64,000 nucleotides of DNA from Tremella fuciformis (Eukaryota; Basidiomycota; Tremellomycetes; Tremellales; Tremellaceae): positions 436,501 to 500,500 of the forward strand of contig CP136497.1 in NCBI GenBank assembly GCA_032768795.1, in the 5' to 3' direction. Below the pieces are notes generated by a model that saw only the letters and a list, made by a program, of their open reading frames with translations, did not search any database and was not told the DNA's origin. Position numbers and translations under genes: made by a program. Below are positions 27,704-38,491 of the stretch, piece after piece (the first letter of the stretch is position 1; each line of letters begins with the position of its first letter).

Positions 27704-30290
<2,587 letters not shown>

Positions 30291-30506
30291 GGCGGTCGAG
30301 GCTCCTGCGAGACCTTGCCGGTGCGATGACCTCTCGTCCTCTGCCTCTTGACGGTCTAGCTAGCTGTCGCTACGGGTGCGGTCGTGTTCTACGGTCGCAT
30401 CAAGTGTCGTTCTTGTGGAATGTGACTGTGATCTAGTGTGAATGGAATAGAAGAGTGCTCGTAGGATCGGGATGCGGGCCGTGAGACAGTAAGGGAGACG
30501 CGGCGG
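30291..30506. promoter_or_regulatory. SNF1 proximal promoter
   Basis: The 216 bp between the SNF1 ATG and the start of the inverted repeat. It is the remaining proximal upstream region of SNF1. No TATA box is evident. Confidence 0.45.
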
Positions 30507-30532
30507 GCGGCTACCGCGTCGAGATCGTCCCA
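30507..30532 (+). repeat. Left terminal inverted repeat (putative)
   Basis: Core GCGTCGAGATCGTCCCA at 30516-30532 is the exact reverse complement of 36433-36449. Similarity extends nine bases outward with two mismatches. Confidence 0.6.
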
Positions 30533-30871
30533 CGCCGGTTGAAATTTTTCGCCCGTCCGTTCACTTCATTCATTCGCCTCTTCACCCCGCCAATGCTCAT
30601 TTCACCAACATCCACCACCAAGGGACAGGGGGGGCAGACCAGTGAATCCCCGGCTCCCCCCCTCGATGGCAATGCCTCTGGCCTGACCCGCCATGCATTG
30701 AAACGCAGGCATGGCGACCGACCGACCGAGACCAACCGATCAAGCGAGCGGGCGAGCGAGCGACCGGTCGAGCGACTGGCGGACGAGGGGGTGACCGGAG
30801 GGGCAAAGTGAGTACGCTCTCTGCTCATCACCAGGCTTCGTCATTCATCTCTGCCTCACTGCCCCTTGCAG

Positions 30872-31993
30872 GGCCAGGCGAAGCCATGCCAAAATTCTGT
30901 GCCAAGGCCAAGGCTGACTGGACTTAGGAAAAAATCACGCCCTTCCCGGCACCTCTACTCGGAACAAGTGTTCAACAAACACCCCCTCGATGTCACAACC
31001 TTCTCAGAGCCAAGCAATCCGGTGCTCCTTGAGCTTCTCCACCGCTTTCTCGATGCAAATCACCCACGCAGCTCGCAACGAGTCAATGCTACGCTTGAGG
31101 AGCTTCAGCTTGCCTATGCAAACATCCCTCGACAAGTTATTGCTGGCCCTGGCAATCAAGCCATCCGCTCTTCTCACTCGACACTCCCCTATCACATCAT
31201 CCGCCTGGAGAAGATCATTGGGCGGGCCAGTAGGAGGGAGATCCTTGGCGTCTTTCGAAGATTTGATTCCTATGGTCCAGGCAAGCATGTTCCCAAGACA
31301 AACAGCCGGACAACACATGACTCCGACAATCATTTCCATCCTTACCACTTTGCGATCATCAAACGACAGAGCAACACTCTGGGCACCACCAAAGACACCC
31401 TACAATCAGCTCGGAAGGCTCTGCACACCCCAACTTCATTGGAGCTTCGACGGCGTCAAGCTGCATATCACCTCACCAATACCTTGGACCGGCTGGTAGC
31501 AACACCGATTCGACGCTACTATGCAAAACTGGATCCCACCACCACCGACTATGCCTTCCATGTTGGTCACTTTGCCAACATTGCTGCCGATGCCAACAAC
31601 ACTCAGCCACTCAATCAACAACTTCGATTTGGTGGGCTGGCCTCAGGCGTTGCATTTGGTTATGGGGAAGCTCGAAAGCCTCACCTCGATACCAATGACT
31701 CACCGGGGATCCCCTCCCTCATTGTCCAGCTGGATGGTCCTCCGGCTTTCACCCGTTTCCCCCAGCTCAACCTTGATGTCAAACTGTGTGCTGGCGACGC
31801 CATCATTGCACCAACAAGATCCCTCATTCACCACGGTCTGGGTGCTGGGAGTGTCACGGAGGAAAGGGTGACAGCAGTTTTCTACACCTGTCGGCACATG
31901 GAGAACCTAGTTGGGAAATCTTTGGATGGAACAATCACAGAGGGGGTCTTTGCTGGACTTGCTGACCACGATATCCATATACTTGATGAGTGA
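30872..31993 (+). CDS. 2OG-Fe(II) dioxygenase domain protein, TET/JBP-like
   Basis: The double-stranded beta-helix dioxygenase core lies at about residues 255-345 of the open frame. It has PHLDTND (the HxD iron ligands), FPQLNLDVKLCAGDAIIAPT, LIHHG (distal His ligand) and EERVTAVFYT (the 2-oxoglutarate-binding Arg). This order and spacing match the basidiomycete TET/JBP-like family, whose characterised members oxidise 5-methylcytosine; activity here is inferred. The N terminus is basic (RKKSRPSRH), and the middle is helical. No ATG lies in frame before the domain, so translation must begin in an upstream exon. A strong intron (GTGAGT donor at 30808, TTGCAG acceptor ending 30871) precedes the frame, but the first exon is unresolved. 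5' truncation is also possible. Confidence 0.62.
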   Translation, partial: GQAKPCQNSVPRPRLTGLRKKSRPSRHLYSEQVFNKHPLDVTTFSEPSNPVLLELLHRFLDANHPRSSQRVNATLEELQLAYANIPRQVIAGPGNQAIRSSHSTLPYHIIRLEKIIGRASRREILGVFRRFDSYGPGKHVPKTNSRTTHDSDNHFHPYHFAIIKRQSNTLGTTKDTLQSARKALHTPTSLELRRRQAAYHLTNTLDRLVATPIRRYYAKLDPTTTDYAFHVGHFANIAADANNTQPLNQQLRFGGLASGVAFGYGEARKPHLDTNDSPGIPSLIVQLDGPPAFTRFPQLNLDVKLCAGDAIIAPTRSLIHHGLGAGSVTEERVTAVFYTCRHMENLVGKSLDGTITEGVFAGLADHDIHILDE

Positions 31994-32020
31994 TGTACAA
32001 ATTGTGGCAGGTGTTCTACC

Positions 32021-33551
32021 TCACAACTCGTTCCCGAGAAGCGGCTGGAGTTTGTCGCGTACCCAAGGTAGTACAAGATAGAACACTTCCCAAGCCGTTT
32101 CCCACCTGAGAGGCGGGCAAGTAGCACCCAGACCCAGCCTCGTTTCTTCCAGCAAATTGCTAGCCGCAACAGGTAGCCACCGGAGATGGCCGTCTGCCTC
32201 TATGTCTGTCATACATTGTAACAGATTCTCCTCCTCCTCTGACGGTATAGATTGTAGGCATTGCTCTCCTCCCCAATGTTGAGGATTTTCCCAGAAGCTT
32301 TCTCGCGGACCTCCAGATGGGTTCAGTTTGTCACGCTGCTTTCGAACTTTGTACGTGTTGTGAAAAAGACAGTGCTCATTGAGCGTCTCTTGCAGCAGTG
32401 GTGCAAATATCCACCAGAACAATGCACTGTCTGTGAGCTGGCGGCAAGCTGACGTGCGTACTGAAGGATTGCGGAGGGAGTCACCTGTGAGTTCCATTTG
32501 TTGGGACAAACCCCCCCGCCATCCCCTCATCAAGTTTCTTCTCCACAAGTCTGTCTACCTCCTTGCAGATCACACCCCATGCACGCTCAATTGTGATGTT
32601 GCGAACTGATGGCAGTTGAATATGGGAAGGAATCTCGTTGAGATCTTGGTGTGAATATGTTGTCCTCCTTTTTCAGCCATTGCAGTACGTTTAGAACAGA
32701 GCACGGTAGCCTTTTGCCTCACCTAAGATGCTCCTGACATTGAAACATGAGCCCACATTCCGAGCCTCTGTCTGCGGCAATCTGTACGGGAAAGCCTGTT
32801 CTGATCAGCCGCATATGCACCCGCTTTTGTTGTTACACACCATGAGTTGCTCGTACGGTCTTGAGAAACAACCATTTGACGTTGGATGCAAGTCTGTTGC
32901 TGGGGAACACATGGAGAGCTAGGAATTTGCCAGAATACACGTCTCGGATGCCGTATATCCCAAACCCATGCTTTGACAGTTTGTCATGTCCGTCAACTGA
33001 CCACTGCTCGTTTGCTCCTGCCGAGACAATAGGGGCTCGATGAGTGCGGCCTCTTTGCCCAAGCCGTCGCGCAACAAGGGCAGCTGGGTCCATATGGCGT
33101 AAAGCTTGTAGAACGGCAGATCTGCTGTGAGCGACATGGCATTTCAATGTGCTCACTGAGTTGTGTGGACTCCTACAAGGCTCAAAGCATGCTGTGAACC
33201 ACGGAAGCCTCGTCCTTGATGGTAGAGCGGGAGCAATGTCAGTGCTTGTTCCAGGTCTGCTCCTCGTAAAGAAGCCTTCCTGTACCCCTCAATACCAAGC
33301 TGTTCTAAGCGTCGAAAGAATGTAGACCTCCCGCTGAGATGAGTCTCCAACATATCAAGTTATGTGTATGCGTACCCAAATGACAAATGAGGATACTTCT
33401 GCTTCAACTCGTTGTTGATTGCCTTGAAGACTCCATGATGTTTGTTGATCAAGGTTCGTAGTATGATGGTATCGTCTTTGGGATCAACTGCATGGTCAAC
33501 ACCTGAGTGAATCTTGGTAGAGTGCTTGCCTTGGTTTCGAGGGATAGACAT
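32021..33551 (-). CDS. Integrase-core (DDE) transposase-like protein
   Basis: Exons: 32021-32426, 32485-32664, 32723-32800, 32837-33124, 33157-33333, 33376-33551; 434 aa, frame closed. An N-terminal helical region (SGRSTFFRRL-type helix-turn-helix, RRLGQRGRTHRAPIVSAG) precedes a retroviral-integrase-like fold. The first acidic residue is in NEQWSVDGHDKLSKHGFGIYG, the second in FPVQIAADRGSE and the third in SVRNITIERAWG, so D, D and E are all present. The C-terminal half (LQETLNEHCLFHNTYKVRKQ) matches the rve-type transposase-like genes that are common in agaricomycete genomes. Some introns are very short (32-36 bp), so splice sites deserve transcript support. It is the natural candidate for the element's mobilising enzyme. 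Confidence 0.75.
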
Positions 33552-33713
33552 GTTTGTGGGATATGAGATAGGTGGAACGAAATGATCAATGGGACCCTCC
33601 GTGCTAGTTGCACATTCAGGGTCAGTGCATAACGTAGATGTTACGTCAACTCTGCCAAACAACCACCATGCCTGGGCAGGACGCGCTCAGCATAGAAGAC
33701 ATGCATAGATGTG

Positions 33714-36266
33714 TCATTTCAGCCCAAACGGCTCGTTCAGATCCAGTACCTCACAAATCAAAGCCGAAGGTGGTCTTGGCCCAATGGGGATATGGTCATA
33801 CACACACTGACCTGTTTTTCGCCAGTCCTCACTGATCTCCGGGTTGCTCTGCCACAATTCTGCTTCTCCTTCCTCTCGTCGCCAGAATGGAATGTCTGCT
33901 GGATCACACACATACTCATAAAGGAGCTCAGATGGGTTGGTGAAAGGTTTGAGCTTGGCCTCCTTGCAGACGGGATTGCACTTGTGCCCGTAAAGAAATG
34001 CCTGCACCCCAGGATTACCTGCATCACCTGGGCCAAGAGTCCGAGCAAAGCTAAACGTCTGATTAGTTACTTGCTGATGGGTGCTTTATGATGACAACGA
34101 ACGAGTGGGCCATCAGATCAAAAAGCCTGACTTGATAGGTGTTTGTTGCCTTCCCTATGTTGCGAGACCTGGCTGCTTCATTGGGCCAATACACAAAGCC
34201 TGATATTAGCATAGCAACTGAAGAGTTACCGGACATACCTTGTACATCTGCTGGAACACATTCTCCATTTGTCGCCTTCTCGAAATGATAATGCAGCCAT
34301 GCATGTATCTCTTGCTGAAGCACCATTGGCACGTACTCCTCATGAGCCGGCTGTGTGGTCTGGCGTTGGATGCCTTCATAGAAGGATCCAAAGAATTTCT
34401 GTTCGCGGACATGGTGTCCAGAAGGGGCAATGGAAAGGTCGGGCTCAATCAACCAGCTCCTTAGGGGCAGGCTATCCTCTCGAGAGCACTCCATGGCAAT
34501 GAAACATGGGGTGATCCCAAAGCCTGGCCTATGAGTCGCCTTGCTGCTGCAATAGTACGGCTCACTGTGTGCAGTGCGAGCATTCTTCTTCCTCTTCAGG
34601 CCCCCCAGGAACTCGTCAAGGGACCGAGCAAGATAGACACCATGGGTCACATCAAGCCAGTTGAGATGGAGCTGCTGGTCCTCGTCGAGTGGAGCTTTAG
34701 GATTTGTGACCGAAAATGGAGCCTGGAGCGTGGCTTGCATAGTGAAATAGCGTTTAGCCACCCAATGAGTCTGTGAATTGCTGGCCAGTCGCATCTGAAG
34801 AATTGTCAGACACTGTCATTCTGTCACAACGACTTACCTTGTACGCCAGCCTGAACATACCCTCCCCAAAATGCTCCTTCTCAACAAAAGCTTCCTCCAC
34901 AATATCATGCCCAACTCTGACAATGTTGTCCTCCTCCTCTACAAAGCGCGGATAGATGCGTCGGATGTGAACCTTCTCAAAGCCACTGGGGGTAGTTGGG
35001 CCATTTTGTCCGCCGCTGTTCCGAGCGCGAGAAGTTGAAGGAATGAACATGCTTTGAAAGAGGCTTTGCGAGGGGGGAAGTGCTAAGCTGATCAGCATGT
35101 TGTCTGCCCAAACCTCCTGACTTACTACTGGTGATGTATGACGGAAGAAGCTCATTGACAGTTTGGGAGGCACGTGTTGACACGGACATGCTTTTGGTCC
35201 CCTTTACCAACTTGATTGGTGTGAGATCCTCGACAGAAGAGTCAGGACTATGGCCTCGCTTCTGCTGGTCAGCTTACAAATAAGCCATCTGCCAACATTA
35301 CGAACCCGTGTAAGAACAGTGGGCCGAACTGTGAATATGAGGTGGATATATCCATGTGCAACGTCCAAGGGTTTTCCGTAAAAGCCTTCTTTTGGCTTGA
35401 AGCGTTTGCGAAAGAATGTTGCAAGCAGCAGTTCACCCTCCTCAAAGTCATTGTCAAGGATGGCAGGCTTGCCAGCTTTGTCGTGCAAAGCCTTTGATGC
35501 CAATTCGCTTGCATGTTACCACCTTGATTCCTTCGCAGGAGAGGAAACACTGACTAGACTAGGTCAAACCCATATGTCGCAAAGCCCTGACCGGGCCCAT
35601 TCCAACAGAGAACCACTTTCTCCCATGCAGCCAGCAGCATCTCCCTCACGAGCATGTTCCAATCTGGGTGAAGGTCGGGCACCTGGTAATTCCAAGGTCG
35701 AGGCTTCTTAGAAGAGTCTGATGCATCAGGCTTTGCAGGAAACATTGCCACACACAACTTACCAGCTACAAAGACACTGATTTTCACAGCCGGATGATGG
35801 GGAACACCCTGATCCATGCCAGATTTGCGAGTTGCACGACTGCTGATGATCTGCTTGGAAGTGAGGGCATTGAAGGTTTGTCGAGAAGCTGCATTTGATT
35901 GACGATCCTCTGCAATGGCATCCAAAGATTTGGGATGCGCGGAAACATCTGTTGATGAATTGATGCTGTGAAGCTTTTGCTGCCCAGTGCCAACATACCA
36001 GGAGCTTTGCACGCCGGGCATGTCCAAAGATCGGTTGATGTGCCATCTATGTCTGCAAGGCCGAAAGCCCCGCACTGTTGACAGCAGCGAGCACGCAGCT
36101 AAAGTCAGCCTTTTGCATAAAGCTGGAAGAGATTGCTCACACCCGTCACCATTGGCAGCATCTGAGGCTTGTCCATTGCCATGGCCATTGCTTTGCAAAG
36201 CCCGCAGACATCACTGTTGGCGGGCATGGCAGGACGATCACAATTGCACGAGCTGCACTTGGTCAT
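33714..36266 (-). CDS. Alpha-type atypical protein kinase with N-terminal cysteine cluster
   Basis: Ten exons close at 714 aa: 33714-34050, 34103-34199, 34239-34794, 34838-35082, 35126-35261, 35306-35507, 35555-35717, 35763-35850, 35904-36098, 36141-36266. The N terminus has CSSCNC, CGLC, CCQQC and CPAC pairs, suggesting a zinc-binding module. The kinase region (about 360-600) shows EKEHFGEGMFRLAYKMR and WVAKRYF (nucleotide-binding strand with Lys), GECVPADVQGF (catalytic Asp, DLQG-like), RLFDLMAHSF, and the closing zinc motif GNPGVQAFLYGHKCNPVCKEAKL. These are alpha-kinase (MHCK/eEF2K family) landmarks. Alpha-kinases have expanded strongly in some basidiomycetes. Substrate unknown; it lies wholly inside the inverted repeats, so it may be cargo. 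Confidence 0.78.
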
Positions 36267-36432
36267 ATTGATTCAGCAGCACAATGATCATGCGAGGTTT
36301 GGGGGGAGATGATGAGTGTCACTTGGCAAGGTGAGCACAGTTGATGCATCTTGCAGTCGAACAAGCCATAGAAGTTCATTCAATGTCCATCATGAAAAGA
36401 GAAGTGTGCGTTGAGAGAAAAGAAAACGCCGA

Positions 36433-36458
36433 TGGGACGATCTCGACGCCGTAGCGGC
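36433..36458 (-). repeat. Right terminal inverted repeat (putative)
   Basis: 36433-36449 is the exact reverse complement of the 17-bp core at 30516-30532, and the match continues outward to 36458 with two mismatches. Confidence 0.6.
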
Positions 36459-36787
36459 GGTATGAGCCGGAAATTACCCGAATAGGGAAGATCCGACCGT
36501 TGAGTTACAGAGGACACCGGCAGCGAGCCAGGAAGCGGACGACGGCCAAGACACCCTATTGCTGCCAGTCACAAGCTGCGTGTTCCACATCACTATCACT
36601 CGTCCATCCACTTCATACAGCATCGCAGTCTCTCCAGCATCAGCGGATCCTTTCTCCTCCCCGCCTAGCGACACGTGAACACCGCCCGCCACCTGGATCC
36701 CTGCCCCACTCGAGTCAGCCGAGCAGTCCCGTTCGACTGGGCCTTCCACCCACACGCCGCTTGGCTGTGCTGCCTGCCAGGAGCACC
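36459..36787. promoter_or_regulatory. Proximal promoter of the SNF1-complex beta subunit
   Basis: 329 bp between the right inverted repeat and the beta-subunit ATG. No gene is recognised. With 30291-30506 it would have formed a bidirectional promoter of roughly 0.55 kb before the insertion. Confidence 0.45.
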
Positions 36788-38491
36788 ATGGGCAACGCAC
36801 CGTCGCATCAGAACTCGCCGAGCCGAGGCGGTCACGGCCACGGACCGAACGGCGCGGGCGGCACCCACAATGGCACGGGAGGATCCGGCTCTGGGTCCGG
36901 CCCCACGTCGCCCACGTCAGAGAAGCGTGACCGCTCGTCCTCGCGCCAACCCAACCTCCGCCTCCCCATGCCCGCTCGTCCGACCACCATTTCGCCCGGC
37001 CACTCGAACCCCACCTCTCCCTCTGGCGGCCGATCAGGATCGCCCCGACGGCGCAAGTCGCTCGAGCTGCCCGACCTGAACAAGCTGGCCTTCACGCCCG
37101 CCGCGCCGGTAGTGACCATTGCGCATCACACGTCGCACGGCCTGGAGGCGCCCGCGGGTCATGCGAAGCGCCATTCGGACGTCGCTGGCAGCTCTATGCC
37201 GGCCGGCTCGAGGCGCTGGCAGCAGGCGCTAGGGGGCAGAGCACCGCTGGGCGGGATGGGCCTCAGCCCCATGTCCAAGCTGGAGTCCGGGCAGGGACCC
37301 ATGAGTGCGCCCGTCCACATGCCCAATGCGAGCGTCAGCCCTACTCGGGCATCGGCATCGACCGAGAACCCGTACTTCCCTTCTGCGCCTACTCCTAAGC
37401 CTGAGGAAGTGCCGCTCGCAAAAGCACTGCCTATACCGATTCCCGGCAAGACGGCTCCTGCTGCCGAGCAGCAGAGACAGACGATGCAGATCAACACACC
37501 GCCACGCGCGGGCACGTCGCCACCGCCCTCGACGGTCGCGCCCACTCCTGCCGAGCCGAGGCCTGCAGAGGGAGACGACGAGCAAGCGAACGATGGGCTG
37601 GTGGCCGTGCCTATTCAGTGGACGCAGGGCGGCAAAGAGGTGTATGTGACAGGCACTTTTGCCGACAACTGGAAAGGCCGGGTCGAGCTGCGCAAGAGGT
37701 ATGCATATCGCGCTCGAAAGACTACTCATCGCTAATGCCATAGCACACACGACTTCAACACCGTCCTGCGGCTACCTCCTGGCGAGCACAAGATCAAGTT
37801 TGTCGTCGATGGAAGCTGGCGGTGTTCGAAGAGCATCCCTACGGCCACGGACGATGACGGAACTCTGGTCAACTACATCGAGGTAGAGGCGGCCAAGACC
37901 CAGGAAGAGCTCAAACAGGAGTGGGCGGTCGCGGTCAAGCCTGTGTCCAGGGAGGAAGAGAGTGGGTTGTTTTGGCTGTCTCACATGCACGAGCTGACGT
38001 GGCAGTCAACGACTCCAAGTGGACCAATGTCATCCCACCAGCACTGTCACTCTACCAATACCTCGAAGAACTACCTCATCTCTTCGCCTCTCGGGAGCAA
38101 TACCAGTCGTTCCTGCAGGGCGCGCCTTACCTTGCACCCGTACCGCAGCCGCCGATGCTGCCCCGTATCATGGATAAGGTCATTGTCAATGCAGACTACC
38201 GCAAGGTCGACAACAGCGCCCATTCAGCTCAGCAGATGCCAGCTGGACGGGATGACAATTCGATTCTAGCGGTACCAAATCATGTGGTTCTGAACCACTT
38301 GACTGCAAGCGCAATCAAGAATGGGACGCTTGGTGTGGGGACGACTACCAGGTACAGGCAAAAGGTGCGTATCCCGAAGTGATATACGGACATGGGAGCT
38401 GACCAGTCAGTACATCACGACAATGTACTTTAGGCAGACGGGCGACGATGTCGTGACTCCCGGGCCAGCACCGAACCCCGTGGCCGCATAA
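36788..38491 (+). CDS. GAL83: SNF1/AMPK complex beta subunit (GAL83/SIP family)
   Basis: Scaffold and localisation subunit of the SNF1 kinase. Exons: 36788-37698, 37744-37961, 38006-38364, 38411-38491; 522 aa. The start MGNAPSHQ is a consensus N-myristoylation signal, as in AMPK beta, and supports this ATG. A long Ser/Pro/Gly-rich linker leads to the carbohydrate-binding (AMPK1_CBM) domain at about 275-350: VPIQWTQGGKEVYVTGTFADNW, FNTVLRLPPGEHKIKFVVDG and WRCSKSIPTATDDDGTLVNYI. The C-terminal ASC domain, which holds alpha and gamma subunits, has IPPALSLYQYLEELP, PPMLPRIMDKVIVN, VPNHVVLNHLTASAIKNGTL and YITTMYFRQ. It is divergent from SNF1, its physical partner. Confidence 0.95.

Follow-up and report, generated by a model that had tools for sequence, protein, structure and literature searches.

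We analyzed a 64-kb window of the Tremella fuciformis genome (C8:436501-500500 of 28.1 Mb in 11 contigs; feature coordinates below are window positions), in which a complete transposon, here called family A, lies between a SNF1-like and a GAL83-like gene. It carries three genes, a dioxygenase on the plus strand followed by a transposase and an alpha-kinase on the minus strand, between terminal inverted repeats of 21 bp with 1 mismatch. Family A is a real, recently mobile and IS3EU-like transposon. We assembled its gene models manually, relying on splice signals and on comparison with a second subfamily and with relatives, not on transcripts. The features are the following:

30512..36453, no strand: complete transposon (family A), 5942 bp; identical copies at 2 other sites, 92% copies at 2 more
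30507..30511, plus: target-site duplication GCGGC, left
36454..36458, plus: target-site duplication GCGGC, right
30512..30532, plus: left terminal inverted repeat TACCGCGTCGAGATCGTCCCA, recurs genome-wide
36433..36453, minus: right terminal inverted repeat TACGGCGTCGAGATCGTCCCA, recurs genome-wide
30593..30807, plus: dioxygenase exon 1; both the exon and its start codon were chosen in modelling, frame kept in subfamily A2 despite indels
30808..30927, plus: dioxygenase intron; 3' part, from 30860 up to the splice site, shows unusual conservation in family C and Helitron-associated relatives
30928..31993, plus: dioxygenase exon 2; HxD...H motif, putative TET/JBP-like 2-oxoglutarate- and Fe(II)-dependent (2OG-Fe(II)) enzyme
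33376..33551, minus: transposase exon 1
33157..33333, minus: transposase exon 2
32841..33121, minus: transposase exon 3; holds D161 (revised numbering), the first catalytic Asp; acceptor shifted 3 bases
32723..32795, minus: transposase exon 4; holds D220, the second catalytic Asp
32485..32664, minus: transposase exon 5; holds E262, the catalytic Glu; acceptor shifted 3 bases
32021..32426, minus: transposase exon 6
36141..36266, minus: alpha-kinase exon 1; cysteine-rich N terminus
35999..36098, minus: alpha-kinase exon 2; cysteine-rich, acceptor revised
35560..35948, minus: alpha-kinase exon 3
35306..35491, minus: alpha-kinase exon 4
35126..35264, minus: alpha-kinase exon 5
34838..35082, minus: alpha-kinase exon 6; catalytic domain begins
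34239..34794, minus: alpha-kinase exon 7
34099..34199, minus: alpha-kinase exon 8
33714..34058, minus: alpha-kinase exon 9; GHKCNPVC stretch, C terminus

An earlier note on this DNA had singled out a 17-bp perfect inverted repeat around the three genes, and this 17-mer (GCGTCGAGATCGTCCCA) is indeed the sole perfect inverted 17-mer of the window whose two arms are separated by more than 500 bp (1 pair). The note had placed the bounds at 30507 and 36458; the repeat stands, but the outer 5 bases on each side (repeat arms plus flanking duplication cover 30507-30532 and 36433-36458) are the GCGGC direct target-site duplication, and the true ends are 30512 and 36453. By searching the whole genome at the DNA level for further copies with the same ends, as the note had proposed, we found five near-full-length copies that fall into two subfamilies, A and A2. 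Subfamily A comprises the copy in the window, one on C4 and one on C1, with 0 mismatches across 5,942 bp, and subfamily A2 the copies on C2 and C3, with 0 mismatches across 5,937 bp; between the two subfamilies there are 442 substitutions in 5,917 aligned sites, plus 45 gap columns. The three identical A copies lie on three contigs, in unrelated flanks, in both orientations and next to different 5-bp duplications. Read in the orientation of the window, the duplications of the five A and A2 copies are GCGGC, CACGT, CCTTG, CATGC and TCGTG. A 6-bp duplication was ruled out, the sixth base being mismatched in 5/5 copies. These multiple recent insertions bear out the claim that the three genes travel as one mobile unit with its own transposase.

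The same trio recurs in two further families whose proteins are very diverged. Family B (C8:1341104-1347268, 6,165 bp, duplication GCAGC; matched at 100% identity across 5,469 bp by another copy on C1) and family C (C1:5708373-5715240, 6,868 bp, duplication TACCC) each encode a transposase and an alpha-kinase, and the third gene of each has the core of an HxD...H dioxygenase; in both the transposase lies between the dioxygenase and the kinase, on the same strand as the kinase. At 90% identity or more, the terminal repeats measure 21 bp in A, 23 bp in B and 27 bp in C, and in all three families the ends start with TAC and finish with GTA. A search of the whole genome for the family A terminal repeat (up to 3 mismatches) returned 29 sites, against 2 for a reversed control. 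Among them, four short derivatives with the same ends (553, 664, 704 and 2,013 bp) are flanked by CGGTG, GCGGG, GGAGT and CCACG. Thus, all 11 insertions whose two ends were both read have 5-bp duplications (five of A or A2, one each of B and C, and the four short derivatives), a count that leaves out the second B copy, a pair on C5 and single repeats on C5 and C10. Because they share their ends with the full element, the short derivatives have probably been moved in trans by the family A transposase or a relative. These four lie at L061-L064, and further candidates at C5:1227177-1230099 (pair) and at C10:306352 and C10:440610 (single repeats).

The earlier note had also described the two minus-strand genes as not decaying, with models of 6 and 10 exons. 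All three genes are present and, in the revised models, their frames are open in both subfamilies; the transposase does have 6 exons (430 aa), but we count 9 for the kinase (728 aa) instead of 10. The dioxygenase has 2 exons (426 aa). Our revision shifted two transposase acceptors, those of introns 2 and 4, by 3 bases each, since the initial choice for intron 4 has GG at this place in A2. In the kinase, comparison with another locus (L018) led us to change the acceptor of intron 1. Intron GT and AG are kept in both subfamilies in 14/14 cases (5 transposase, 8 kinase and 1 dioxygenase), the introns being 35-68 bp long on the minus strand and 120 bp in the dioxygenase. We then compared A with A2 by NG86 (dS 0.21-0.23) and obtained nonsynonymous-to-synonymous rate ratios (dN/dS) of 0.106 for the transposase (Fisher P 2.6e-22), 0.140 for the alpha-kinase (P 6.7e-29) and 0.069 for dioxygenase exon 2 (P 2.5e-20), exon 1 with its indels being left unscored. 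All three genes, the dioxygenase in its exon 2, are therefore under purifying selection, and since the values are similarly low, the moving element preserves its dioxygenase and kinase with about the same stringency as its transposase.

Searches of Pfam, PHROGs, structure and protein databases with the family A proteins used the first models unless stated otherwise. The transposase matches PF24764, an integrase core (48.7 bits against a cut-off of 26, E 9.6e-13), and the catalytic triad D, D, E that the earlier note had read as intact corresponds to D161, D220 and E262, candidates common to six aligned relatives. Public proteins yielded 15 relatives, 31-49% identical, of which the best named are from Tremella mesenterica and Cryptococcus wingfieldii, with Mycena among the others; these belong to the same Pfam family (PF24764, rva_4) and were compared as proteins, without genomic context. 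The best relative without a name, P0001, is close to the family C transposase: three stretches of 20, 111 and 102 aa are 100%, 87% and 94% identical, respectively, and a longer stretch translated regardless of introns is 62% identical. At the exon level, PF24764 has 39 matches in the genome (37 above cut-off), several of them near-identical copies and many on contig C10; judging from these matches, the genome holds more integrase-type transposons of this broad family.

For the alpha-kinase, the revised model matches PF02816 over its full length (34.8 bits against a cut-off of 21.3, model 1-185/185; 34.9 with the first model), and its N terminus is cysteine-rich, in line with the zinc-type N terminus proposed earlier. 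Both parts are constrained, with dN/dS of 0.061 in the cysteine-rich N terminus and 0.118 in the catalytic domain. The GHKCNPVC region aligns to eEF2 kinase, not significantly (E 0.47), and the first model found no public protein at E <=0.001 among 7995 scored candidates. At L018:3223-5800 (C5:2351722), an intact terminal repeat is followed by a diverged kinase copy, of which one matched stretch has 7 TGA codons, some maybe intronic, with no transposase match beside it; this is possibly a broken or partial relative.

The dioxygenase required a more indirect approach. H252-x-D254, H301/302 and R313 (numbered on the exon 2 translation) are kept in Helitron-associated relatives; we take HxD...H to be the iron-binding triad and R313 a putative 2OG-binding residue, from what is known of the superfamily. 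By aligning the dioxygenases of the three families we found H, D and one distal H common to all, and HxDxxD in each. The sole Pfam hit of the family B protein is Tet_JBP (E 0.0012, below the Pfam cut-off), and the best solved structures for the family C protein are two Naegleria Tet-like dioxygenase sequences (E 0.16 and 0.21, not significant). A profile of four family A sequences scored 57.5 against B plus C (at most 23.3 in 60 column shuffles, 11.3 for the reversed profile), 48.4 against B alone (at most 25.2 in 60 shuffles) and 45.3 against C alone (at most 23.2 in 60 shuffles). A TET/JBP-like label for the family A enzyme is thus reasonable but indirect, because the profiles link it to the B and C proteins and these point weakly to TET/JBP. 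The Pfam hits NCAB1 and FdhE_N for the family A protein fell below cut-off and were set aside as irrelevant, and no public protein matched it at E <=0.001 among 7999 scored candidates. Six-frame genome searches with PF12851 and PF02816 gave no match; they lacked a positive control and so are no sign of absence.

A relative of this dioxygenase occurs in two copies on C1, L015:3901-5239 (C1:2382900; 62% identical by tblastn) and L016:3937-5275 (C1:4692436; 61%); aligned with the family A enzyme, the Helitron-associated relative is 61% identical. At L015, the one of the two copies that was scanned for helicases, PIF1-helicase domains are encoded in a frame about 1 kb from the relative, which suggests that the gene rides a Helitron there and that the same enzyme is found on transposons of an unrelated class. 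Toward its 3' end (window 30860-30931; L017:5818-5889; L015:4948-5239), the dioxygenase intron is 88% identical across 73 bp between A and C; this stretch reaches the splice site and holds a 13-codon ATG frame in both families. Outside it, tblastn between the dioxygenase coding parts of A and C found nothing better than E 0.67. Exon 1 of A is 85% identical to the Helitron-associated version across 80 bp, against 66% for the remainder.

Compared with published systems, family A comes closest to IS3EU elements with a TET/JBP gene (TET+ IS3EU). In the available text of Kojima 2025 (PMC12730594), TET/JBP genes are described on 11 transposon lineages, and TET+ IS3EU, known from rusts and Tuber indicum, combine transposase, TET/JBP gene and alpha-kinase in one inverted-repeat unit as family A does. 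The combination, which the earlier note did not know, had therefore already been published; what differs here is the 5-bp duplication, the shorter repeats and another gene order and orientation. According to the same text, the rust elements have 6-bp duplications, repeats of more than 30 bp and ends TAYGG..CCRTA; one family A end, TACGG, is alike, whereas the duplication (5 bp) and the repeats (21 bp) differ. All TET+ IS3EU families described there carry the TET/JBP gene between a transposase and an alpha-kinase of opposite orientation, while in families A, B and C the transposase is in the middle, on the strand of the kinase. Kojima and Bao 2023 (PMC10045372) give IS3EU/GingerRoot TA..TA termini, an integrase-like DDE transposase and usually 6-bp duplications; our families have the termini, but 5-bp duplications in all 11 insertions. 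The likeness to IS3EU thus lies in the ends, the integrase-type DDE transposase and the published descriptions, with membership of the transposase itself established for PF24764 only. KDZ transposons (Kyakuja, Dileera, Zisupton), as far as described in PMC12730594, also have TET/JBP cargo but 7-8-bp duplications, and family A differs from them by its PF24764 transposase and its 5-bp duplication; the available text on CMC and KDZ transposons of Cryptococcus neoformans (PMC12810828) names no such trio. Regarding the enzyme types set out in PMC12730594, PE-type TET has HxE where the dioxygenases of A, B and C have HxD, and AG-type TET (CcTET numbering) has Gly/Ser at +5 and Asp at +11 from the first His, whereas our three families, counted without gaps, have Asp at the first of these positions and Ser or Thr at the second.

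A genome search found one C5 DNA methyltransferase locus in the host (E 1.5e-5; E 2.3e-7 when its frame is scored), so that a TET-like enzyme could plausibly have a substrate here. The gene lies at L065 (C3:1690600-1696600), and the frame preceding it resembles a BAH domain by eye; Pfam reported none there. CpG observed/expected is 0.616 in A, 0.622 in A2, 0.604 in B and 0.536 in C, compared to 0.884-1.075 in 47 overlapping host windows, and 0.624-0.862 in the four short derivatives; the flanks of the four other A copies range from 0.76 to 1.108. Moreover, between A and A2, transitions affect 97/610 CpG-site positions versus 197/2,620 other C/G positions (2.1-fold, P 1.6e-9). Both the depletion and the transitions fit methylation of the elements at some time. 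The comparison of GC content suggested in the earlier note gave 0.515 for the family A insert, below the 0.525-0.614 of the same host windows (0.51-0.52 for A, A2, B and C, compared to 0.53-0.61). Low CpG was also seen at L018:6000-8501 (0.25), L014:3500-8501 (0.53) and L016:5400-9001 (0.57), which are possibly other methylated repeats.

Taken together, we consider it probable that family A is an autonomous IS3EU-like transposon of the cut-and-paste type with two selected helper genes, one of them an anti-silencing dioxygenase. From the chemistry of the DDE family, the transposase would act on the TAC-ended repeats, cut and join with a 5-bp stagger and, given the common ends, it or a relative would also mobilize the short derivatives in trans. 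The dioxygenase would oxidize methylated bases on the element DNA and relieve silencing by host cytosine methylation. The kinase would probably phosphorylate either the transposase or a factor of the host that acts in chromatin or silencing; this is the weakest step. With rather more doubt than confidence, we further propose that transposase, TET-like dioxygenase and alpha-kinase form a conserved mobility and anti-silencing module, in a lineage with 5-bp duplications beside IS3EU that has its own HxDxxD dioxygenase type and uses the kinase as a second counter-defence effector. Most eukaryotic DNA transposons carry little besides what movement needs. In the open and very recent copies of family A, a kinase and a probable DNA-modifying enzyme are under transposase-like selection, and the 28-Mb genome with five near-full-length copies and short derivatives makes a small system in which TET-like counter-silencing and the role of the alpha-kinase can be tested.

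Several results weigh against this account. The dioxygenase of family A had no accepted match in Pfam, PHROGs, NCBIfam or PDB, AlphaFold run on four sequences gave no usable fold (pLDDT 32.7), and exon 1 is poorly conserved between A and A2 (23 mismatches and 36 gap columns in 230 columns). The shortfall of the family B hit and the insignificant structural matches of family C count likewise, as does the column of the putative 2OG-binding arginine, which is R in C but Q in B. On the side of methylation, the lowest flank value (0.76) belongs to the C4 copy, and the surroundings of four other PF24764 genes, picked without a known dioxygenase, are less depleted (0.737-0.945), so that protection by the dioxygenase cannot be read from the CpG values; the GC and CpG composition could also stem from an origin in another host. 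As to the kinase, its target and action are our conjecture.

These points feed different alternatives. That the locus is an old resident three-gene locus or a segmental duplication, the outcome the earlier note had named as its refutation, has practically no weight left: nothing was found in its favour and, provided that the assembly is right, it is excluded by the three copies with 0 mismatches at unrelated sites on three contigs, with their different duplications and orientations. More weight goes to the reading that the third gene encodes another kind of 2OG-Fe(II) dioxygenase, acting on protein, RNA or a small molecule. The lack of a direct family match or usable structure model for the family A enzyme speaks for this, and so does the halogenase WelO5, the sole Pfam hit of the family C protein (E 0.23). 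We nevertheless judge it unlikely, as B hits Tet_JBP only, C hits a Tet-like dioxygenase first among solved structures and A is linked to both by profile; certain published transposon TET/JBP enzymes are themselves hard to detect by sequence, as stated in the available text of PMC12730594. The TET/JBP label given in the earlier note thus has indirect support, through the profile link, and no direct match.

It would be more improbable still that the dioxygenase and the kinase are passengers, kept for a benefit to the host or by accident, with only the transposase mattering to the element. Their functions are predicted from sequence and hosts may co-opt such genes, but selection between the subfamilies is similarly strong on all three, and the same three kinds of genes are present in B and C despite the divergence of their proteins. 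A better chance, though on the unlikely side, goes to a recent arrival of the families from another host, whose low GC and CpG would then reflect the donor and not methylation here. The composition of A, A2, B and C below the host windows is what this predicts, as are the absence of mismatches within subfamilies and the four other PF24764 stretches closer to host values. However, low CpG is not unique to families A-C, because other loci hold CpG-poor stretches too (0.25-0.57 in L014, L016 and L018, and the 0.76 of one flank). Such an origin is in any case compatible with the proposed working of a self-mobilizing element with an anti-silencing dioxygenase.

The element also lies upstream of both neighbouring genes, whose names, SNF1 and GAL83, come from reading their sequences; Pfam finds a protein kinase domain in the SNF1-like one. 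The start codon of the SNF1-like gene (30290, minus strand) is about 220 bp from the element and the start of the GAL83-like gene (36788) about 335 bp. The insertion splits an upstream region of about 550 bp common to both (window 30290-36788), and because of this split the two genes may be regulated differently from those of sister strains.

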